This document shows positions 1,411 to 19,729 of a stretch of DNA of 27,936 nt, piece by piece. The position numbers and the translations under genes were made by a program. A model generated the notes under the pieces. The model had not been told where the DNA came from. It made no database searches and saw nothing but the letters and a program-made list of their open reading frames with translations. How positions within the stretch are numbered: the stretch's first letter is position 1; every line of letters begins with the position of its first letter. This stretch comes from a virus: the IMG/VR virus record IMGVR_UViG_3300025889_000743, positions 1 through 27,936 of that record, one strand, 5' to 3'.

Positions 1411-1800
1411 TTATAACTCTATAAATTCTCCATCTTCATCAGTATAAAACACTTTTTTGATATCAAATTCTGCGATTGCCCGCATACATCCATCACAAGG
1501 TTTCGAATAGGAGAAATAGTTTTTATTATCAGTATTTATACGAACCCGACACACATACATTGTAGCTTTCGAAAGATCCTTTAATGAAACTTTCTTTAGC
1601 GCATTATGTATCGCAGAGACTTCCGCGTGAAGAAATATAGCTTCATTTGCTTTACTATATCGTTTTTGAAATGGATGCGACTTGATTTTATTACAGGCGA
1701 GCGAAATTACCTCGTTTTTGTAAACGAGAACGGCAGCGTGCTTTGAGCGATGATGGTCGGAATTCATCGCCATGGAAGACAAAATGTTTTGTATCCTCAT
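1411..1800 (-). CDS. Zinc-dependent cytidine/deoxycytidylate-deaminase-family protein
   Basis: A 129-residue protein with the two zinc motifs of the cytidine deaminase superfamily: HAE at residues 58-60 (zinc His and proton-shuttling Glu) and PCDGC at 101-105 (two zinc Cys). It would hydrolytically deaminate a cytosine- or adenine-type base, nucleoside or nucleotide; the substrate cannot be read from the sequence. It differs from the second deaminase of the window (8487-8957), which looks like the standard dCMP enzyme: this one is shorter and lacks the long insert between the motifs. Its ATG overlaps the helicase stop (ATGA at 1797-1800), so it sits in the same transcript as gp41. A TATAAATA octamer at 1533-1540 lies inside the gene and is probably chance. 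Confidence 0.85.
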   Translation of the reverse strand: MRIQNILSSMAMNSDHHRSKHAAVLVYKNEVISLACNKIKSHPFQKRYSKANEAIFLHAEVSAIHNALKKVSLKDLSKATMYVCRVRINTDNKNYFSYSKPCDGCMRAIAEFDIKKVFYTDEDGEFIEL

Positions 1801-7864: not shown

Positions 7865-8497
7865 TTATTTTATTTCTGTCAACTCTTTTTTGAATGCTTC
7901 GTAATATTTTTTACGGTCTTCCAATCCTAGTTTTCCTCCTTGAACTAGTCTTGTCATCCAAACTATGTCATCCGTGTCACATGCTCTATTTATATTATTT
8001 TTATCCCAAAACCAGATAGAAGTTAATACTGCAATTTCTGGCATTAAAACCATGTCTGGGTTTTCTAGTATATCTAAATTCATATCTTTTGCGCAAGAGG
8101 AATAGTTATTTTTTCCTGTAAGTTGAATTAATCCTCTTCCTCTATACTTCCATCCATCACCGGTTTCCTCAGAGCCATTACCCAATCTTCCACCATAAAC
8201 TCTACTTGCAATAGCTCTTTTGTCACGAGCATATTTCTTAGCTAACTCCTCGGTTGGAAAATATTTCTTGAAGACAACTTGTAATCTTTCTGCGGAATAA
8301 TTTAAGTTTTCTTCTATTCTATTAAATTGCCCAGATTCATGTGCAGTCTGTGCTAGAAAACCTGCGATCCTATTTACCGTATTAAATTCAAAATTTTTCA
8401 TCGCCTCAGCCATAGTCATAGCATACTTTGAAATGCCATTATTTCTTGGCATAACTTTTTTCGAAATAGAAATTAATTGTTCGTAATTAATCATCAT
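7865..8497 (-). CDS. Endolysin, glycoside hydrolase family 19 type
   Basis: A 210-residue GH19 (chitinase-like/lysozyme) domain that would cleave peptidoglycan glycan strands at lysis. Diagnostic motifs are FLAQTAHESGQF (47-58), with catalytic acid Glu54, IEENLNYS (61-68), with a likely second Glu, ASRVYGGRLGNG (97-108), and the signature YRGRGLIQLTGKNNY (118-132). There is no signal peptide or transmembrane segment, so it would need a holin to reach the wall. No classical holin gene is obvious nearby, but a 47-aa membrane protein is encoded just upstream at 8944-9087. Two adjacent start Met codons (8497, 8494) overlap the end of the dCMP deaminase gene. T4 uses a different lysozyme (gp e), so this is a non-homologous replacement. 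Confidence 0.93.
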   Translation of the reverse strand: MMINYEQLISISKKVMPRNNGISKYAMTMAEAMKNFEFNTVNRIAGFLAQTAHESGQFNRIEENLNYSAERLQVVFKKYFPTEELAKKYARDKRAIASRVYGGRLGNGSEETGDGWKYRGRGLIQLTGKNNYSSCAKDMNLDILENPDMVLMPEIAVLTSIWFWDKNNINRACDTDDIVWMTRLVQGGKLGLEDRKKYYEAFKKELTEIK

Positions 8498-8957
8498 ATT
8501 TTATTATTTCTATTCCACAGTGAGATAGAAAGTTTAAACCATCTTTCGAACGATAAAGATGACTGTAAACCACCCTTATAATTCCAGCTTGATGAATTAA
8601 TTTGGCACAATCTATACAAGGAGAATGTGTAATATACATTGTACCTTTATCTGAAGATTCTGTTGAGCGCGCCACTTTCATCAAACAATTTGATTCTGCG
8701 TGTAGCACTTCGGGCTTCGTGACCAGTAATGGCGGAACAGGAGAGGGAGGATATCTCAGCGGAGCCTCTATCATTTCATATTCACAATCGTTGTCCCAAC
8801 CTATCGGCATACCATTCCAACCATAACTCAAAATTCTATCATCCTTGACAAGGACTGCGCCAACATTAAGTCTCTTGGCATAACTCATTTGAGACACACG
8901 TTTTGCTATATCAGAGTATAGCGAATCATACCTATTTTTTTTATCAGAGTTTAGCAT
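8487..8957 (-). CDS. cd: Deoxycytidylate (dCMP) deaminase
   Basis: A 156-residue zinc enzyme that would convert dCMP to dUMP, feeding thymidylate synthesis. It has GAVLVKDDRILSYGWNGMP (33-51), typical of dCMP deaminases, then HAE at 86-88 (zinc His, catalytic Glu) and SPCIDCAKL (112-120) with zinc Cys114 and Cys117. The size fits the bacterial and phage family (T4 Cd, 193 aa, is longer). With the dUTPase at 9706-10221 it makes dUMP from both C and U deoxynucleotides. The gene overlaps the endolysin start by 11 bp and its own ATG lies inside the end of the 47-aa membrane protein gene (14-bp overlap). Confidence 0.93.
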   Translation of the reverse strand: MLNSDKKNRYDSLYSDIAKRVSQMSYAKRLNVGAVLVKDDRILSYGWNGMPIGWDNDCEYEMIEAPLRYPPSPVPPLLVTKPEVLHAESNCLMKVARSTESSDKGTMYITHSPCIDCAKLIHQAGIIRVVYSHLYRSKDGLNFLSHCGIEIIKYDD

Positions 8958-9702: not shown

Positions 9703-9710
9703 TATTTATA
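9703..9710 (-). promoter_or_regulatory. T4-type late promoter TATAAATA (hsp20)
   Basis: An exact TATAAATA on the minus strand, overlapping the dUTPase stop codon; predicted +1 near 9697, about 82 nt before the hsp20 ATG. This is the octamer recognised by gp55-type late sigma factors, and gp55 is encoded in the window. The octamer also occurs by chance in AT-rich DNA, so its intergenic position is the main support. Confidence 0.55.
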
Positions 9711-10221
9711 ATCCAGTTGAACCAAATCCACCGGTTCTTTCACCTTTTTTTGGTAAAGTTGAATATGTGTCATCATTAATTTCTTCTATTTGACAATTAA
9801 TGTATGGACACAATTCACCCTGCGCGATTCTCATGTCCGTTTTTATCAGTACCTCAGTTGCAGTAACGTTTGTTAAAGACACAAATATTTCATCCGTATA
9901 ATCTGAATCGATTATACCCACACCATTTGTTAAAATTAACCCGTTTTTCACAGACACGCCTGATCTAGAATAAATTTTTATACAATATCCATCTGGTATA
10001 TCTGAACATATTCCTGTTGGAATTAATATTCTATCACCAGGTTCAACTATAACAAAATTATATTGTACTTTTATTTCTTCCTCGTCATTATCGAGATTAT
10101 AAACTTTTACCGCCTTAAATGGATAAAGGCAGGCATGAAAATCAAAACATGCTGATCCGGGAGTTGCATAAGATGGAACAATTGCAGTTTCGTGTAATCT
10201 TTTAAATTTAACGTTAATCAC
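9706..10221 (-). CDS. dut: dUTPase (dUTP pyrophosphatase)
   Basis: A 171-residue trimeric dUTPase that would hydrolyse dUTP to dUMP and PPi, keeping uracil out of phage DNA and supplying dUMP. The five family motifs are visible: ATPGSACFDFHA (motif 1), YSRSGVSV (2), NGVGIIDSDYTDEI (3, catalytic Asp in GIIDSDY), RIAQGELCPY (4) and RTGGFGSTG (5, the mobile C-terminal arm that closes on the substrate). It is slightly longer than usual because of an acidic insert with NLDNDEEEIKVQY near residue 45. The start is a GTG at 10219-10221, sharing one base with the preceding stop (TAGTG), which indicates translational coupling to the 63-aa gene. Confidence 0.95.
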   Translation of the reverse strand: MINVKFKRLHETAIVPSYATPGSACFDFHACLYPFKAVKVYNLDNDEEEIKVQYNFVIVEPGDRILIPTGICSDIPDGYCIKIYSRSGVSVKNGLILTNGVGIIDSDYTDEIFVSLTNVTATEVLIKTDMRIAQGELCPYINCQIEEINDDTYSTLPKKGERTGGFGSTGL

Positions 10222-12242: not shown

Positions 12243-12317
12243 TGGTGCCCCCGGAGAGATTTGAACTCCCGACCTTCGGTTTACAAAACCGCTGCACTAC
12301 CACTGTGCTACAGGGGC
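12243..12317 (-). tRNA. tRNA-Thr (anticodon UGU)
   Basis: On the minus strand this 75-nt sequence folds as a complete cloverleaf: acceptor GCCCCTG with CGGGGGC (one T-G pair), U8-A9, D arm GCAC-AGTGGTA-GTGC, anticodon loop TTTGTAA giving anticodon TGU, and T arm GGGAG-TTCAAAT-CTCTC. The 3' CCA is encoded. The anticodon stem has a mismatch at its outermost pair (27-43). It would read ACA and other ACN codons, helpful for an AT-rich phage. The 5' 10 nt overlap the end of the methyltransferase gene. Confidence 0.95.
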
Positions 12318-13882
12318 TTATAGAAGATAAGCACTGGCTCATACTTCAGCCATATGCCATTTACTTTACAGAAATTTTTTGCTTTAGGCAAGCCTGTTTC
12401 TTCATCTATTCTATTACCTCCAGGCATTTGTGCGAGACTCATCTTTAACTTTCCTAGATAATGCATTCCAAGATCAGTTAAAATATCAATGGAGTCTTTT
12501 TCCAGAGGTAACATTTCACCATCGAATACTGCATCAGCAATATTCCATAAAAGATAACGATCATTATTTAGCCATTCTACACAAGTTTCTAGAGTCTTTT
12601 TGAGAAAGCCTTCTCTCCAAGAATCATACTGTGAAAACTTCTTGTATGATTGTTCTTCATCTTCGGAATATGCTTCCTTGGCAAAATATGGTGGTGAAGT
12701 AAAGATTAAGTCTAACTTACCACGATAACTTTGAAACTTTTTGTCTTCATGAATTACTTCAGAACCCTGCTGAAAAATTTCATAAGAGTGTGTTTTAGGA
12801 AACAATCCATAAGACCTATTTGTTTGTGTATTGAAAAAGTCTGCAAATTCATGATACTTGGTTCTACCATTTTCGGTACTATGATCGGTATTAGGATCTG
12901 TACCAATATAATGAATATTCATTTCATCATTGATTGACATAGCACCTAAGAGCCTTCCTCCCCATCCAGCAGAAGGATCATATATGAGTATTCGCTCTTG
13001 ATTTCGAATGTGTTTAGTGAACTTTTCATATAGATATTTTGCTGTCAGGGGAGGAAAGTTAACCGCATATTGGCAAAAAGAAACCCTGAATGCTTTTAGC
13101 CCAACAGGAAATAATTTTTGCCCCAACTTAAAGACACGAATTCTGCACGTTTCACTTTTCTCAAAATTTACATTTGTTTTACAATTGTCAGGTATCTGTA
13201 GTTTTTCTATCTGATCCTTAGTCAAAAATAGGTATTTCTGATTCTTCAGCTTTTCATTATAACCAGTATACTCTTTACCTTCTTCAGTAGACTCTAACCA
13301 ATAGTCATATTCACCACGCTGTCTATAGTTTTTCTCAAACAAATGAATCCATTCTTCCGCTTCATTTGTTACGGGAAGTTTTTCTACATGACTTCTATCA
13401 AAAACTTTTACTGGATTTGAATAATGATAAAAAGAATCTCGCTTAAAATGACGCGATGCATAAGTTACAAAGGTTTCATACAATTCATCTTTTGCAAAAT
13501 AATCATAGATTGATTTGCCTTTGTTCACATCCTTTGTATAATTTATGCGTGTCTTCATCATCGTAGGAAAAAATTGATTGACGGCATTACCAATCACACT
13601 GGTGTTTCGAATAACGTCTTTTTCACCAGTCAACTCATCAACCTGCTCAAATTCGTGAACAGGAAATGAAGTCATCTTATTGAACTGATCAACAATTTCT
13701 TCTTCATTATAACCGACACGAGGTGGTATGCCTAGATTGTCCCAAGCAAAAACAACAACTTCTCTAAGGTCTTTAACCCACTGACGAAACTCATCAGTGG
13801 TCATCCACAAGACCTCTTCAAAAGTTTTATTTACTTTATGTTCAAGTAAATAAACGTTTTTCTCATAGAACCATTTAGTCAT
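12308..13882 (-). CDS. Amino-methyltransferase (N4-cytosine/N6-adenine type) with large N-terminal extension
   Basis: A 524-residue SAM-dependent methyltransferase. The catalytic domain is C-terminal: motif I YDPSAGWGGRLLGA (about 301-314, SAM binding), an acidic-loop motif GTDPN (327-331), and motif IV FTSPPYF (394-400), the SPPY signature of exocyclic-amino DNA methyltransferases. The first 250 residues or so match nothing I know and could be a target-recognition or partner domain. An upstream TTG (13897) also opens the frame, but the ATG at 13882 overlapping the preceding stop (ATGA) is preferred. The stop TAG at 12308-12310 is nucleotides 8-10 of the tRNA. No restriction endonuclease is adjacent. 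The substrate may be DNA, but a modified base or another amine is possible given the PLP and hydroxylase neighbours. Confidence 0.85.
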   Translation of the reverse strand: MTKWFYEKNVYLLEHKVNKTFEEVLWMTTDEFRQWVKDLREVVVFAWDNLGIPPRVGYNEEEIVDQFNKMTSFPVHEFEQVDELTGEKDVIRNTSVIGNAVNQFFPTMMKTRINYTKDVNKGKSIYDYFAKDELYETFVTYASRHFKRDSFYHYSNPVKVFDRSHVEKLPVTNEAEEWIHLFEKNYRQRGEYDYWLESTEEGKEYTGYNEKLKNQKYLFLTKDQIEKLQIPDNCKTNVNFEKSETCRIRVFKLGQKLFPVGLKAFRVSFCQYAVNFPPLTAKYLYEKFTKHIRNQERILIYDPSAGWGGRLLGAMSINDEMNIHYIGTDPNTDHSTENGRTKYHEFADFFNTQTNRSYGLFPKTHSYEIFQQGSEVIHEDKKFQSYRGKLDLIFTSPPYFAKEAYSEDEEQSYKKFSQYDSWREGFLKKTLETCVEWLNNDRYLLWNIADAVFDGEMLPLEKDSIDILTDLGMHYLGKLKMSLAQMPGGNRIDEETGLPKAKNFCKVNGIWLKYEPVLIFYKPL

Positions 13883-14685
13883 GCGCCAACATTCCAAAAT
13901 AATACTGAATCGGGTTTTTGATAAAGTTCATAGTGTTCCATCATTGGTTGCCATCCCTTTGCATCATAAGTTGGTGCAGAAGGAAAAGGCGGAGCTTCAC
14001 TTTCTTTGACGGGTTTGTCAAATTTATATGGTGTACGATGACATATCGCTCTACCAATTTCTCGCTCACTCATGGTATGCCCAACAGATACGACATGTAT
14101 TATAGCATCTGGCCATGCTAATTGCAATGATCTATTGAGGGTTCCACTGGAACCGACAGTCCAAACTTCCTTCGGTTTGATTGGTAGATTTCTTGCAACT
14201 TTTATGAAAGAGCCTATGACAGAAGGATGCTCTAATCCTAGAGGAAGAACTTTTCTTTCTTCTGATTTTTCAGCAGCATAATCTCTTGCTCGCTTTTGTG
14301 TAACTGGAAGCATACCATTATCAACCCAGTGATAAACGGTACCTAATTCCATACCTCTCTTTTGATATGGATGCAATTTGTCCATGCTTCTCTTTGCCAT
14401 AAAGAGAACAGCTTTCTTACCATACTTTTCACAAACATGTGGAAGACTTATCTGTGCGTATCCTGTAGCTGGGCATGAACCAAACACCCATTCTTTAATA
14501 TTTTTATTTGCAGGATCGTGCCCTATCAAATAGTCTACACCACGAATCTTGGAACCATATTGTAGAAGATCATCTCGAACAACTGTTATTCCATTATACA
14601 TTTCTAATACAGGTGCAGGATTAGGATCTTCCCAATCTATCACATGATTTAAATAAAATTCCGCTTCATGTTCTAAGCCGTACAT
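13879..14685 (-). CDS. PLP-dependent fold-type-II-like enzyme (ACC deaminase/cysteine-desulfhydrase-like)
   Basis: A 268-residue protein that reads like a compact fold-type-II PLP enzyme. YGSKIRGVDYLIG (43-55) matches the PLP-lysine box of ACC deaminase and D-cysteine desulfhydrase (Lys46 would bind PLP). VFGSCPATGYAQISLPHVCEK (67-87) and AVLFMAKRS correspond to the substrate loop and following strand, WTVGSSGTLNRS (175-186) is the phosphate-binding loop, and the C-terminus FWNVGA resembles the family's terminal glycine tail. It is shorter than usual (about 320-340 aa). Substrate and reaction are unknown; family chemistry would be amino-acid deamination, beta-elimination or replacement. It overlaps its upstream neighbour by 13 bp and the methyltransferase by 4 bp, a tight coupling suggesting a shared pathway. 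Confidence 0.72.
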   Translation of the reverse strand: MYGLEHEAEFYLNHVIDWEDPNPAPVLEMYNGITVVRDDLLQYGSKIRGVDYLIGHDPANKNIKEWVFGSCPATGYAQISLPHVCEKYGKKAVLFMAKRSMDKLHPYQKRGMELGTVYHWVDNGMLPVTQKRARDYAAEKSEERKVLPLGLEHPSVIGSFIKVARNLPIKPKEVWTVGSSGTLNRSLQLAWPDAIIHVVSVGHTMSEREIGRAICHRTPYKFDKPVKESEAPPFPSAPTYDAKGWQPMMEHYELYQKPDSVLFWNVGA

Positions 14686-15770
14686 AATAATTCCTGTATT
14701 CTTTCATTAACTAAAACATCAACAACTAAATGTATTCGCTCTTCGAAACCACCATTTATCGCTCTGTGTGGTTTTCTAGTGTCAAGAAACCAGCACTCTC
14801 CTTCTTTCATATTAACACATTGTTCTTGACCATCGCAATCCCAAACAGTAAATAAAACTTTATCATTTGTTTTTATTGGAAAATGCAATCGCGCAAGTTT
14901 ACCTAACGATCCACCGGAGTCATCATCAACCTGATCGGTATGTCGAGTAAGCTCTCCATTATTTGGAGTCAATTTCATAAATCTAATGCGATGAATCTCC
15001 GTGTCATCAAACATGCTCAATAACATTCTTACTTCAGGAAAATTATTATAAAGTGGTGTGTCTTGCATCTCAAAATGAAAGTCTTTGTGTTCTTCTTTCC
15101 ATTTATCATTCATTTCACTTGGTTTGGTAATAAAAGAAGGATCAGATGAGTACCCCCTCAATGAAATGGCTGACCAAGATTTTCCTTTATTATAGTTACT
15201 ATAATGATTAGTAAATTCTGGAATTAGGTAAAGAGCATCATTTATTATTCGAATCAGATTAGTATTAACATCTCCAATTTTTTTAATACTCAAAAGTTCA
15301 GCAGGATTGACTTTAGGAAATTCTCTATTTTCACCGCGATAGTAAATAGCATGTATTTCTCCAAACGTAGTTATTTTAGAACCAACTCTTGTAAATCCAC
15401 AATCTTCAGCAAGTTTCTTGTGCTTCAAATCTTCTGCCCAAACATATAACCAAGCATTTTCTTTTACTGAATTAATGTGATTAGCCAAATTATTAATGCT
15501 TCCAGACAATTTTGAAATGGTAACATCACCCTTCTGCTTAGTCGCAATCAAAGTTTTTCCATGCAAAATAATGGGAGTGTTAACTTTTACTGGAGCAATA
15601 TCAATAAACGAATCATCAAATATTTTTAGCGTTCCTTTATGAAGCATTTCTGCGATATTATTCTTTTTAACTTCCGCAAATGGTGACAGCGCAAAAGCAT
15701 TATATTCAGAATACTTACTTGAAAGTGACTTCAAATAATCTAATTCATATCCATGCTGCCATGGTTTCAT
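14673..15770 (-). CDS. Possible GNAT-like domain fused to an aspartyl/asparaginyl beta-hydroxylase-type dioxygenase
   Basis: A 365-residue two-part protein. The N-terminal part (1-145) ends LYVWAEDLKHKKLAEDCGFTRVG, a pattern like the last strands of GNAT acyltransferases, but no clear acyl-CoA loop (Q/RxxGxG/A) is visible, so it may be degenerate. The C-terminal part (about 200-355) has the metal-binding set of Asp/Asn beta-hydroxylases: HTD at 277-279, RLHFPI with His296, CWFLDTRKPHRAIN with His335, and ERIHLVVDV with Arg345, which would bind 2-oxoglutarate. It would hydroxylate an unknown protein, nucleic acid or small-molecule substrate. ATGA overlap with peptide deformylase upstream and a 13-bp overlap with the PLP gene downstream place it in the accessory cassette. 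Confidence 0.75.
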   Translation of the reverse strand: MKPWQHGYELDYLKSLSSKYSEYNAFALSPFAEVKKNNIAEMLHKGTLKIFDDSFIDIAPVKVNTPIILHGKTLIATKQKGDVTISKLSGSINNLANHINSVKENAWLYVWAEDLKHKKLAEDCGFTRVGSKITTFGEIHAIYYRGENREFPKVNPAELLSIKKIGDVNTNLIRIINDALYLIPEFTNHYSNYNKGKSWSAISLRGYSSDPSFITKPSEMNDKWKEEHKDFHFEMQDTPLYNNFPEVRMLLSMFDDTEIHRIRFMKLTPNNGELTRHTDQVDDDSGGSLGKLARLHFPIKTNDKVLFTVWDCDGQEQCVNMKEGECWFLDTRKPHRAINGGFEERIHLVVDVLVNERIQELLCTA

Positions 15771-16360
15771 CGAGCATGTCCTCTCGCAAACTTTTTGATT
15801 AATTTTTCTTGCTTCTTTTTAGCTACTATATAAGAAGTTTTTCCAACATGTTTTGTGAATTTAATTCCATTTAAATGATCAAGTTCATGCTGAAAACACC
15901 TAGCGGTGAGTCCAGAAAAGGTATCAGTCTTCATCATTCCAGTTTCATCACAATATTCAACGGTAATACTTTCATTACGATTAATTTTCAAATACATTCC
16001 AGGAAAACTTAGACAACCTTCATTACCCAAGTTATTTTTTTCTGACCTAGAAATGATTTTAGGGTTGAAACAAACCATTACATCATCTTCATTACCAATA
16101 ACAAATACTCTCGCTTTTATTCCACACTGATTTGCTGCCAAACCTATGCCACCATATGCTTTCATTGTAGCCTTTAAACATCCGGCTAAATTTTTTGCAT
16201 CTATTTGTTTATTAGAAAAATCAAAGTCAGGCATTACTTCATTTAGTAATGGATTTAGATCATTAAAGACCCTAAGAATGTCGTATGTTTTTGCTTCTTG
16301 AAGGTTGGTGTTGATATTCAACACTTGTGATTCAGCATCAAAATTTATTTTTGTACTCAT
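15767..16360 (-). CDS. def: Peptide deformylase
   Basis: A 197-residue metalloenzyme that would remove the N-formyl group from nascent proteins at the ribosome exit. The three hallmark motifs are intact: GIGLAANQ (71-78), EGCLSFPG (114-121, metal Cys116) and QHELDH (157-162, metal His158 and His162, catalytic Glu159). The basic C-terminal extension KKKQEKLIKKFARGHAR resembles the ribosome-binding helix of bacterial PDFs, which many phage versions lack. It is a common accessory gene in marine phages. It lies one base after gp46 and overlaps the next gene (ATGA). Confidence 0.96.
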   Translation of the reverse strand: MSTKINFDAESQVLNINTNLQEAKTYDILRVFNDLNPLLNEVMPDFDFSNKQIDAKNLAGCLKATMKAYGGIGLAANQCGIKARVFVIGNEDDVMVCFNPKIISRSEKNNLGNEGCLSFPGMYLKINRNESITVEYCDETGMMKTDTFSGLTARCFQHELDHLNGIKFTKHVGKTSYIVAKKKQEKLIKKFARGHAR

Positions 16361-16361
16361 A

Positions 16362-18074
16362 TTATGTTTGCATCCTAGAAAAATTTTTTATTTTAGAAAA
16401 TCTTAGCGTTTGATCAAATTTTTCAATTAATTGATCTGATTTATGGCTTATAACAAATAGATTTGTATTTTCTAAATCATGTAAAATTTGAATCAATTCT
16501 TCAGTGCCGTTTGCGTCAAGAGATGAATCAAATATTTCATCCAATATTAAAAGATTGGTGTTAACACTGCTTTTCAACTTAGCCACTGATCTCCAAGTTA
16601 ACATAAGAGCCATATCAATCCTTTGCTTTTCGCCTTCGGAAAAAGATTCATAACTAAACTCATCTCTATGTCTTGATTTTATACTTTCCTTAAACGACTC
16701 GTCAAGATTAAAGTTAACAAAAAAATCAAGAGCGGAAAGATACTTATTAACTAACTTGTTTATTATTGGAAGATATTGTTTTATTATTTTTGTTTTTATA
16801 CCGGAATCTTTTAACAGAATTGCAGCAGCTTCATAATATGCTCGCTCCTCAATTTCCGTTTTATTTTCCTTTTCCATTTTTAGTAATTTTTCACTCAAAT
16901 CATTTAACGTATTAATTTCATCAGTGACGTTTTCTTGAGTCATTGATAGTTTTTCTATCTCCGCCAATCTTTTTTCTATTTCAACATTCAAGTTAACTAT
17001 GTTCTGATTCCAAAAATTGACGCTTACCGCAAATTTCTTGCATTCTGATATAGCTGAATCCAAGTCTATGATTTTATTATCAATTTTACTAAGTCTAGAT
17101 TCCAATTCTAATATAGCATTATCATATTCTTGTGTTTTCTTTTCTAGTGTGTCCTGTTGCTCTTCCTTAAATTTTTGATCAATAGATTGCAGGCAAGTTG
17201 GACAGTTATCATTCTCATGATAAAAGGAACTCATCTTTTTATTCTTTTTTAAATTTGAATCAATAGATCCTTCTAGGGAAAGTAATTTTTTCTTTTTATC
17301 TTCCTGCTCTTTTTTATTCTGTAAAAGTTTCTCTAAATTATCAACCTCATGTTCTGTTTCTTTTATTTTGTTTTTATAATCTTCAATTTTAGCACGATCA
17401 TTCTCATTATCTATTTTATAGATCTCAATTTTTTCATTATTATTTTGCTTGAGGGTATCAATGTGCCGCTTTTGCATCACTATCTTTTCGGATAGTAAAT
17501 CTATTTTAAATTTGTTTTTTTGTATGGCATCTTTAATTTCAGCTAGTCTAGTTTTAGCTAATGCGTTCATTGAAGAAAAAACTTGAATATCCAGTAGATC
17601 CTCAATGATCAATCTTCTATCTGAAGCCGATAATTGCATAAAAGGAACGAACGATGCACTACCGAGAATTACTATTTGAGTAAATGATTTAAAATTAATT
17701 TTTAGAATATTTCTTTCCAAATATTCTTGATAGTCAATAGACTTAGCTTCCTGATTAAGAAGCGTATTGTCACAATATATTTCAAAAACGGTTGGCTTTA
17801 AGCCACGAACAATTTTATATTTTTTCTTTCCAATATCAAATTCCAATTCAACCAGAGCATCCTTTTGATTGATACTATTAATGATATTCGGTTTATTAAT
17901 TTTACGAAATGGTTTTCCAAATAAAGCAAAACACAATGCATCAAGCACTGTAGATTTACCCGAGCCGTTTTCACCGACAACTAAAGTATTTTTGTACTTG
18001 TTTAATTGTATCTCAGTAAACAGATTTCCTGTCGAGAGAATATTTTTCCAACGAATAGTTTTAAATAAAATCAT
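16362..18074 (-). CDS. 46: Rad50/SbcC-like recombination nuclease ATPase subunit (T4 gp46)
   Basis: A 570-residue SMC-type ATPase that partners gp47 to resect double-strand ends for recombination-dependent replication and host DNA breakdown. Walker A GENGSGKS is at 34-41. Two coiled-coil arms flank a zinc hook, CPTC (291-294), which would dimerise through Zn. The ABC signature FSEGEKQR lies at 478-485 and Walker B LLILDEIFD at 508-516. It is similar to T4 gp46 (560 aa). It overlaps the end of the 2OG oxygenase gene by 14 bp. Gene order here is 47, an inserted oxygenase, then 46. Confidence 0.97.
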   Translation of the reverse strand: MILFKTIRWKNILSTGNLFTEIQLNKYKNTLVVGENGSGKSTVLDALCFALFGKPFRKINKPNIINSINQKDALVELEFDIGKKKYKIVRGLKPTVFEIYCDNTLLNQEAKSIDYQEYLERNILKINFKSFTQIVILGSASFVPFMQLSASDRRLIIEDLLDIQVFSSMNALAKTRLAEIKDAIQKNKFKIDLLSEKIVMQKRHIDTLKQNNNEKIEIYKIDNENDRAKIEDYKNKIKETEHEVDNLEKLLQNKKEQEDKKKKLLSLEGSIDSNLKKNKKMSSFYHENDNCPTCLQSIDQKFKEEQQDTLEKKTQEYDNAILELESRLSKIDNKIIDLDSAISECKKFAVSVNFWNQNIVNLNVEIEKRLAEIEKLSMTQENVTDEINTLNDLSEKLLKMEKENKTEIEERAYYEAAAILLKDSGIKTKIIKQYLPIINKLVNKYLSALDFFVNFNLDESFKESIKSRHRDEFSYESFSEGEKQRIDMALMLTWRSVAKLKSSVNTNLLILDEIFDSSLDANGTEELIQILHDLENTNLFVISHKSDQLIEKFDQTLRFSKIKNFSRMQT

Positions 18075-18669
18075 TATTTGTCAACGCAATATTAAAGGCT
18101 ATACTAATTCTATCTTTTTTTGATTTATTTGGTTCCACCACATGTTCTAACCAAGATGGAAAAATAACCAATTTATTCTCTTTAGGTTCCACAAAAACTG
18201 TAGGATGACTCTCATGAGATAAGGTTTTTGTGTACTGCTGATACCAAAATTTCATCAACGGATTAGGATGATGAAATATAATATTACCGCTATTTTTTGG
18301 AACCTTTACATAGTAAACCCCAGAAAGAAATGAACAGGGATGATTATGTATAGCATTATAATTTTCTTGATTATTAATGTTTATCCAAAATTGCAGAGTA
18401 TTTTCATTTAATTTATAATGTTCAAGTAGATTCAATTTATCCGCAACGTTTTTTAATTCCAACCATATTAAATTAAATAGAGGTTTTAATTTATTATCAG
18501 TTTTCTCATGAAAATATAAATCATCACTTTGCCATCCACCTACATTAGATAAAACTCTACCTTTACTTTTCTCAGCTAATTTTTTGCAAAATTTTTCTAC
18601 TGGTTTATTATCTACATTAAGTTCCGAAAACCACAGAGGTGTTGGAAACCAATACTCCACATCAGCCAT
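18061..18669 (-). CDS. Putative 2-oxoglutarate/Fe(II) oxygenase (TIGR02466-like)
   Basis: A 202-residue protein of the phage and bacterial 2OG-Fe(II) oxygenase type I remember as TIGR02466. Key segments are YNAIHNHPCSFLSGVYYV (metal His near 108-110), NIIFHHP, and then LVIFPSWLEHVVEPN (distal metal His176), followed by RISIAFN, whose Arg187 would bind 2-oxoglutarate. The target is unknown. A GTG at 18681 also opens the frame, but the ATG at 18669, giving MADVEYWFPTPLW, is the better start. It overlaps the end of gp47 by 8 bp and the start of gp46 by 14 bp, so it is embedded inside the recombination-nuclease operon. Confidence 0.82.
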   Translation of the reverse strand: MADVEYWFPTPLWFSELNVDNKPVEKFCKKLAEKSKGRVLSNVGGWQSDDLYFHEKTDNKLKPLFNLIWLELKNVADKLNLLEHYKLNENTLQFWININNQENYNAIHNHPCSFLSGVYYVKVPKNSGNIIFHHPNPLMKFWYQQYTKTLSHESHPTVFVEPKENKLVIFPSWLEHVVEPNKSKKDRISIAFNIALTNNDFI

Positions 18670-19729
18670 TTGTTTCCACACTTAAACATTCTAAATAAAG
18701 ATCTCTCATAACATTCTTCAATTTATCTTTATCAACGTTCAAACTCAACTGATCAATATATTTTGATAGAATCGTAACTGTGTCCTCAGCCTGATCTATA
18801 GATTCATCATCTATTGCGTCCAATTCTTCAAAATTTTCAACTACACAAATATCGATAGGATTCTCTTTGATTAAATGTTCCAAAACTAAATCAAAACAAT
18901 ATGGATTATTTTTATTTTCAATTGTTACTTTAACATATTTCTCAAAGAATTGCAAATAGTCAAACTTTTTCCAATACTCAAATGTTTGAGTCGTGTCATC
19001 ATAGTTTATCTTATAGAACATTCTATGAGGGTTTTGAATAAATTGTAATTCCCTAGTTTCTGTGTCAAAAACATGAAATCCTCTCGGATCATCATAATCA
19101 GCCCATGTCATTTCTCCAGGAGTACCGACATAATATATTTGCCCATCAGTTGACTTGTGATGAAAGTGACCACTGAGAACAATATCATAACGATGAAGAG
19201 TGCTTTTATCCATTCCTTCATGACAGACATTACCTCTGTCCATTTCAAATCCTGCAATTTCAAAGTGACCAAAGCATATTTCTGATTTAGATTTTTCAAT
19301 AAATTTTTTAATTTGCTCTTCATTTTCTGCACATATCCAAGGAATAAAATCTATCGTTACACCTTCAAAATCTAATGTAGTAGGCTCATCAATTACTTCA
19401 ATATTATCGTATTCCTTAAGAAGTAGCTGTGAAGAATTAACTTGCAAAGTATTTTTGTATGAAATGTCGTGGTTACCCAACAACGTAACCATTTTCAAAT
19501 TGTGCTTTTTCAGTGCATCGAAAAAATATTTTTTGGACAGATATAGTGAATTAAAATTTATATACTTTCTTCTATCAAAAAGATCACCTAATTGATAAAT
19601 CTCAGTAATATTGTTTTCTTTCAGATAGGGAAAGAAAACTTCGCTATAAAATTTTTGATAATATTTGTGGAAATGAATCGAGTCATTTCTCATTCCGAAA
19701 TGTGTATCACCTAATATCGCTATCTTCAT
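18662..19729 (-). CDS. 47: Mre11/SbcD-like recombination nuclease (T4 gp47)
   Basis: A 355-residue metallophosphoesterase nuclease, partner of gp46. The family motifs are intact: GDTHFG (7-12, Asp8 and His10), GDLFDRR (48-54), LGNHD (84-88, catalytic His87), CFGHFEI and LSGHFHHK, giving the di-metal (Mn) site. It is close to T4 gp47 (339 aa). Its start overlaps the end of gp55 by 23 bp, so late sigma and nuclease share a transcript. Confidence 0.97.
   Translation of the reverse strand: MKIAILGDTHFGMRNDSIHFHKYYQKFYSEVFFPYLKENNITEIYQLGDLFDRRKYINFNSLYLSKKYFFDALKKHNLKMVTLLGNHDISYKNTLQVNSSQLLLKEYDNIEVIDEPTTLDFEGVTIDFIPWICAENEEQIKKFIEKSKSEICFGHFEIAGFEMDRGNVCHEGMDKSTLHRYDIVLSGHFHHKSTDGQIYYVGTPGEMTWADYDDPRGFHVFDTETRELQFIQNPHRMFYKINYDDTTQTFEYWKKFDYLQFFEKYVKVTIENKNNPYCFDLVLEHLIKENPIDICVVENFEELDAIDDESIDQAEDTVTILSKYIDQLSLNVDKDKLKNVMRDLYLECLSVETNG

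Follow-up and report, generated by a model that had tools for sequence, protein, structure and literature searches.

Three overlapping genes on the minus strand

We examined three consecutive genes of the IMG/VR virus record IMGVR_UViG_3300025889_000743, a 28-kb fragment whose entire 27,936 bases were analysed and are referred to as the window. The gene content of the window is T4-like, with DNA polymerase, UvsX, clamp loader, SbcC/SbcD-type gp46/47 homologues, major head protein and head protease. The three genes encode an amino-methyltransferase-fold enzyme with an SPPY motif (MT), a compact enzyme of the pyridoxal phosphate (PLP) fold type II, called PLP below, and a protein (HYD) that joins a GNAT-like domain to an Asp/Asn beta-hydroxylase-type 2-oxoglutarate (2OG) oxygenase. 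They and their conserved motifs, including the S-adenosylmethionine (SAM) site of MT, lie as follows.

12308..13897, minus strand: MT, SPPY amino-methyltransferase-fold enzyme (PF01555), 529 amino acids when counted from TTG, with the ATG at 13882 as likely start
12953..12979, minus strand: MT SAM-binding motif I, DPSAGWGGR, nearly invariant
12686..12697, minus strand: MT catalytic motif IV, SPPY, then F-x-x-E-x-YS-x-D; SPPYF..E.Y invariant
13879..14685, minus strand: PLP, compact fold-type-II PLP enzyme of 268 amino acids, relative of Pseudomonas phage M6 gp52; predicted local distance difference test score (pLDDT) of the model 96
14548..14550, minus strand: PLP Schiff-base lysine K46, motif RDDL..GSK-R, 100% conserved in 98 sequences
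13957..13968, minus strand: PLP motif Y240-D-A-K243, aligned to YDLK of M6 gp52; K243 invariant, Y and D at least 90%
14673..15770, minus strand: HYD, GNAT-like domain (about residues 1-165) and Asp/Asn beta-hydroxylase-type 2OG oxygenase (about residues 185-365; PF05118, E 1.7e-12)
14934..14942, minus strand: HYD iron-binding motif H277-T-D279, invariant in 17 homologues including gp4 of Mycobacterium phage LilMcDreamy
14766..14768, minus strand: HYD third iron ligand H335, invariant in alignment A6
14736-14738, minus strand: HYD R345, likely 2OG-binding arginine, invariant in alignment A6

Judged by sequence conservation, all three open reading frames are real genes, with homologues down to 35-45% identity in hundreds of viral contigs. 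In the closest relative, locus L010, the PLP and MT homologues showed 86-91% identity and the HYD part about 90%. The initial annotation had described the three genes as overlapping by 13 and 4 bp. The HYD/PLP overlap is indeed 13 bp, and that of PLP and MT depends on the MT start, being 4 bp with the ATG at 13882 and 19 bp with the TTG at 13897. The ATG is the likely start because homologues support it (consensus xxCxxMKxFYERN).

The Pfam search with the window PLP protein reached no family. The AlphaFold model of PLP matched 1j0a with a VIA Z score of 24.2 over 259 residues (root-mean-square deviation 2.9), and with Z about 24 over 250-260 residues it came nearest to D-cysteine desulfhydrase and an ACC deaminase homologue (Foldseek match, E 5e-12). 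PLP shares with ACC deaminase and D-cysteine desulfhydrase the fold (Z 23-24) and the Schiff-base lysine motif, but it is only 13-17% identical to them, about 60 residues shorter, phage-borne and linked to a DNA enzyme. In 98 homologues, K46, the R-D-D motif, the phosphate-loop glycine and the YDAK lysine were invariant or nearly so (G181 of the phosphate-binding S-S-G-T is invariant), and a dead fold is therefore unlikely. On the model, PLP is a complete fold-type-II enzyme, as the initial annotation had suspected, and is predicted to bind PLP.

The HxD...H iron site of Asp/Asn beta-hydroxylases is intact in HYD (H277, D279 and H335), and the hydroxylase domain matched L-proline cis-4-hydroxylase in the PDB. 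The N-terminus of the window HYD itself had no Pfam match. A profile built from HYD N-termini matched GNAT genes that stand alone (E 6e-6). Two of these genes reach the PF00583 cut-off (20.7 bits), one exactly at the cut-off, and at three loci (L143, L144 and L147) the GNAT and hydroxylase domains are encoded by separate genes. The GNAT-hydroxylase fusion, which had been put forward as a possibility, thus stands, and the conserved PLP lysine and HYD iron site bear out two of the sites that the initial annotation had proposed to check. A second 2OG-Fe(II) oxygenase gene, of a family different from that of HYD (PF13759/phrog_81), lies about 2.3 kb upstream of HYD (window 18061-18681, minus strand).

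MT scored 27.4 bits against PF01555 (cut-off 26.7). In the MT family DPS-x-GWGGR and SPPY are invariant, which is the combination of motif I and (S/D/N)PPY of N6/N4 amino-methyltransferases, and the divergent partners carry the related motif (S/T)(S/C)PPYxxxExY. The MT model (pLDDT 89) showed a class I methyltransferase (MTase) fold with a VIA Z score of 15 to Trm11/TrmN/Trm14. The N-terminal region of about 250 residues, correctly noted in the initial annotation, is conserved and well predicted in the model, and the fold search barely covered it. MT resembles the N6-adenine/N4-cytosine DNA methyltransferases of PF01555 in motif I, motif IV and fold, but differs from them in this N-terminal region, in its linkage or fusion to PLP and in having no restriction partner.

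Two loci (L072:5746-8918 and L078:5746-8918) carry one PLP gene followed by two tandem MT copies that are 41-44% identical to the window MT, perhaps with two target specificities. A tRNA-Thr (TGT) gene at window 12243-12317 (minus strand) overlaps the last 10 bp of MT, and the same overlap is found in L010.

Linkage, gene fusions and exchanged partners

A PLP profile search gave 503 relatives in IMG/VR among pattern matches, of which the best 80 were kept, and 25 in bacterial genomes. After the loci were clustered at 80% identity, 36 clusters had enough flank, and an MT-family gene lay near PLP in 29 of these, the exceptions being distant bacterial homologues. The HYD family was present in 11 PLP clusters. 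Linkage of PLP and MT is seen in T4-like viruses and other phages, in siphophages and in bacterial contigs, and its layout changes with the context. The order is PLP then MT in T4-like viruses, PLP with MT about 1.8 kb on in another phage type (L014-L025), ParB/MT then PLP in siphophages (L002 and L013), and MT then PLP in bacterial contigs, two of which (L030 and L033) have tail-type genes alongside as judged by eye. In Staphylococcus phage Alsa_1 a PLP homologue (E 3e-17) lies about 1 kb from an MT relative. Distant bacterial PLP homologues (25-30% identity; L037, L040-L044, L048-L050) have no MT nearby; closer inspection covered L041 and L045.

The two genes are also fused, in at least two different ways. 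In the Erythrobacter phages R6L and ZS04, PLP is inserted between motif I and motif IV of MT, and the N-terminal region of the fusion protein resembles a ParB/sulfiredoxin gene of a related phage, which points to DNA. In L026, MT and PLP are fused end to end. Conservation of the pair across these contexts, together with two types of fusion, is not expected by chance on the sequence comparisons. A phosphoadenosine phosphosulfate reductase-like gene lies near the R6L/ZS04 fusion gene (L003:2413-3456 and L004:1-939).

The initial annotation had asked whether the trio stays together across phages and took independent occurrence as evidence against a joint role. Seen from MT, the genes upstream of it gave PLP-MT at 45 loci, HYD-PLP-MT with or without a preceding deformylase gene at 40, deformylase-PLP-MT at 9, GNAT-MT at 5, HYD-MT at 3, separate HYD and GNAT genes before MT at 3, the deformylase only at 7 and MT alone at 6; the loci are redundant and the contigs partly fragments, and these counts are neither independent nor frequencies. 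No PLP gene was found anywhere in nine MT records (44-168 kb) that had no PLP neighbour. By these comparisons MT is the constant part, and PLP, hydroxylase and GNAT are modular additions that come and go. The genes do occur independently of each other in part, but the pattern is combinatorial, which speaks for a tailoring role and not against one. The fixed trio was not upheld; the broader proposal of a unit for an amino-acid-derived DNA modification gained from the linkage, the fusions and the separate pairings described next. The deformylase gene of the window adjoins HYD.

15767..16360, minus strand: peptide deformylase (PF01327, E 3e-37), 4-bp overlap with HYD

Across loci it is often, not always, upstream of the cassette and is probably outside its mechanism.

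Both PLP and HYD have relatives beside an enzyme unrelated to MT. PLP aligned with M6 gp52 (hhalign probability 98.5, E 3e-15), including the lysine, YDxK and FWN motifs. This PLP enzyme is part of the thymidine-hypermodification cassette of M6-like phages (PMC9476957), a pathway that yields 5-(2-aminoethyl)deoxyuridine in M6 (PMC6449724). Directly before gp52, M6 gp51 belongs to the Pfam family ADDT, 'amino acid:DNA transferase' (PF18724, E 1e-46). In the scheme that Lee et al. 2021 reportedly described, a free amino acid is attached to the base and then sculpted by enzymes including PLP-dependent decarboxylases and acetyltransferases. LilMcDreamy gp4 is a full-length homologue of the window HYD and adjoins an ADDT of another clade, gp3 (E 3e-12). 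The PLP family was found nearby in 17 of 39 M6-type ADDT loci. In all eight LilMcDreamy-type loci, LilMcDreamy itself being one of them, ADDT is followed a short way downstream by a member of the HYD family. An IMG/VR search with the LilMcDreamy HYD as query matched LilMcDreamy only.

MT and ADDT did not occur together. The scanned M6-type and LilMcDreamy-type ADDT loci contained no MT, and none was found in 15 ADDT records by a search that contained no positive control. In 13 MT-PLP virus records, 73-176 kb long, ADDT (PF18724) was not found, and it was detected in the M6 and LilMcDreamy controls. PF18746 (alpha-glutamyl/putrescinyl thymine pyrophosphorylase clade 3) had no match in 15 MT records and none over the cut-off in M6 or LilMcDreamy. 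The M6 system is alike in placing the same PLP family beside an amino-acid-attaching enzyme within a modular tailoring set; it differs in using hydroxymethyluracil, a kinase, aGPT-PPlase/ADDT enzymes and a radical SAM enzyme (PMC9476957, PMC6449724), whereas the searched MT-PLP records have an SPPY MTase-fold enzyme in place of ADDT. The LilMcDreamy module (gp01-gp04) is alike in its GNAT-hydroxylase protein family and nearby ParB, and differs in that its ADDT stands beside a DpdA-like enzyme; MT was not detected in its record, nor was a PLP family member in the searched stretch. Since two tailoring enzymes that accompany ADDT elsewhere accompany MT here, MT is most simply read as taking the place of ADDT and leaving an amino acid on DNA.

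The start of the LilMcDreamy record (L131:1-3759) encodes ParB, a DpdA-like queuine transferase, ADDT and the GNAT-hydroxylase, which suggests another modification system, one that unites enzymes of the deazaguanine type with amino-acid enzymes.

A candidate route to amino-acid-bearing DNA and its alternatives

The cassette is probably a DNA-hypermodification module of some kind, to judge from its gene associations. We give a probability of roughly 0.45 to a more specific reading, in which MT replaces ADDT as the enzyme that attaches an amino acid, most simply acp (the 3-amino-3-carboxypropyl group of SAM), and PLP, hydroxylase and GNAT then tailor the product; the DNA substrate, donor, target atom, tailoring reactions and order of steps are what we infer from the genes described above. 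More tentative is its narrowest form, in which the SPPY enzyme moves acp to the amine of adenine or cytosine and the product is decarboxylated, hydroxylated or acylated. MT would recognise phage DNA and transfer acp to it, in place of a methyl group or in addition to one. The SPPY motif makes an exocyclic amine the candidate target, either N6 of adenine or N4 of cytosine. The acp group would be the only amino acid that a SAM-dependent transferase can supply. Its transfer would leave an alpha-amino acid on the base, the outcome that M6-type phages reach through the unrelated ADDT, here with SAM as the source. PLP would most likely decarboxylate this base-linked amino acid to give an aminopropyl base, the hydroxylase would hydroxylate it and the GNAT domain would acylate its free amine; the modified base may protect phage DNA from host nucleases.

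A precedent by analogy for acp transfer by an MTase fold would be TYW2, a class I MTase-fold acp transferase that acts on tRNA. In wybutosine synthesis TYW2 puts the acp of SAM on the base and TYW5 then hydroxylates; the chemical logic is the same, and the tRNA substrate and the protein families are different. The literature searched described neither a PLP enzyme with an SPPY methyltransferase nor acp on phage DNA, and novelty is provisional, as an earlier prediction is possible in key papers outside the search.

Several points weigh against replacement of ADDT by MT. The sequence and fold of MT do not separate methyl from aminopropyl or acp transfer, and its closest folds are RNA methyltransferases. 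The M6-type PLP enzyme, whose decarboxylase role is so reported, is said to act on a C5-linked, not an N-linked, amino acid. At 13 MT loci no PLP, hydroxylase or GNAT lay within 3-5 kb, which a plain methyltransferase explains equally well, and the redundancy of the loci bears on all counts. One alternative is that MT is an ordinary N6-adenine/N4-cytosine DNA methyltransferase, with PLP as a structural or recognition subunit and HYD as a separate accessory gene. The SPPY motif and PF01555 match suit this, as do the MT loci without PLP, HYD or GNAT nearby and the PLP insertion in R6L/ZS04, which occupies the place of the target-recognition domain of some amino-methyltransferases. It would leave the invariance of the PLP lysine and of other positions in the active site across 98 sequences, the retained iron site of HYD and the pairing of both families with ADDT elsewhere to be accounted for, and we consider it unlikely. 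Somewhat less likely again is a hypermodification in another order, in which PLP would convert SAM or a free amino acid into a donor, such as decarboxylated SAM, and MT would move the group in the manner of an aminopropyltransferase. MTase-fold aminopropyltransferases exist, branched-chain polyamine synthase was among the MT fold matches (Z 13.1, tied with many methyltransferases), and the PLP-MT fusions would suit channelling. However, the homologous M6 enzyme belongs to a cluster that reportedly builds on DNA-linked amino acids, and HYD-MT and GNAT-MT cassettes without PLP suggest that the amino acid sits on the product of MT itself.

It appears improbable that the cassette modifies tRNA by acp transfer and hydroxylation in the way wybutosine is made. 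The nearness of the MT fold to tRNA methyltransferases and the overlapping tRNA-Thr gene had suggested it, but this reading was dropped since the overlap is no conserved feature of the tested loci: 18 of 20 have no tRNA, and only L009 has another one nearby, a tRNA-Ser just after MT. The ParB-like region of the siphophage fusion proteins and the association of the partners with ADDT also point to DNA. That genome compaction packed three unrelated accessory genes together, an alternative raised in the initial annotation, would fit a compact T4-like genome, the optional nature of HYD and PLP and the variable genes that can sit between PLP and MT from locus to locus. It is largely refuted because PLP and MT are fused; their linkage in unrelated phage contexts and the ADDT partnerships of both HYD and PLP speak against it as well, and we regard it as very improbable.

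Surrounding genes and wider meaning

No nuclease partner adjoins the cassette in the window, in agreement with the initial annotation; its neighbours are the clamp loader gene, the deformylase gene and an SbcC-like replication/recombination gene. Two separate deaminase-like genes lie at window 1411-1800 and 8487-8957 (minus strand), the first a dCMP deaminase by PHROG, and a gene at 9706-10221 is dUTPase-like by eye, so nucleotide pools are probably managed.

If MT does take the place of ADDT by acp transfer, phages would have a second way to amino-acid-bearing DNA, not homologous to the first, and with it a DNA acp transferase of a kind not found in the literature searched. Two unrelated ways of putting amino acids on DNA would then share one common tailoring set. 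The system occurs in the cultured phages Alsa_1, R6L, ZS04 and Mae-JY30 (a Microcystis phage), where it is directly testable. Under the same condition, the genes that hundreds of viral contigs carry as phage 'DNA methyltransferases' would produce a DNA base that is chemically new, and the methyl-only view of SPPY enzymes would have to be revised.

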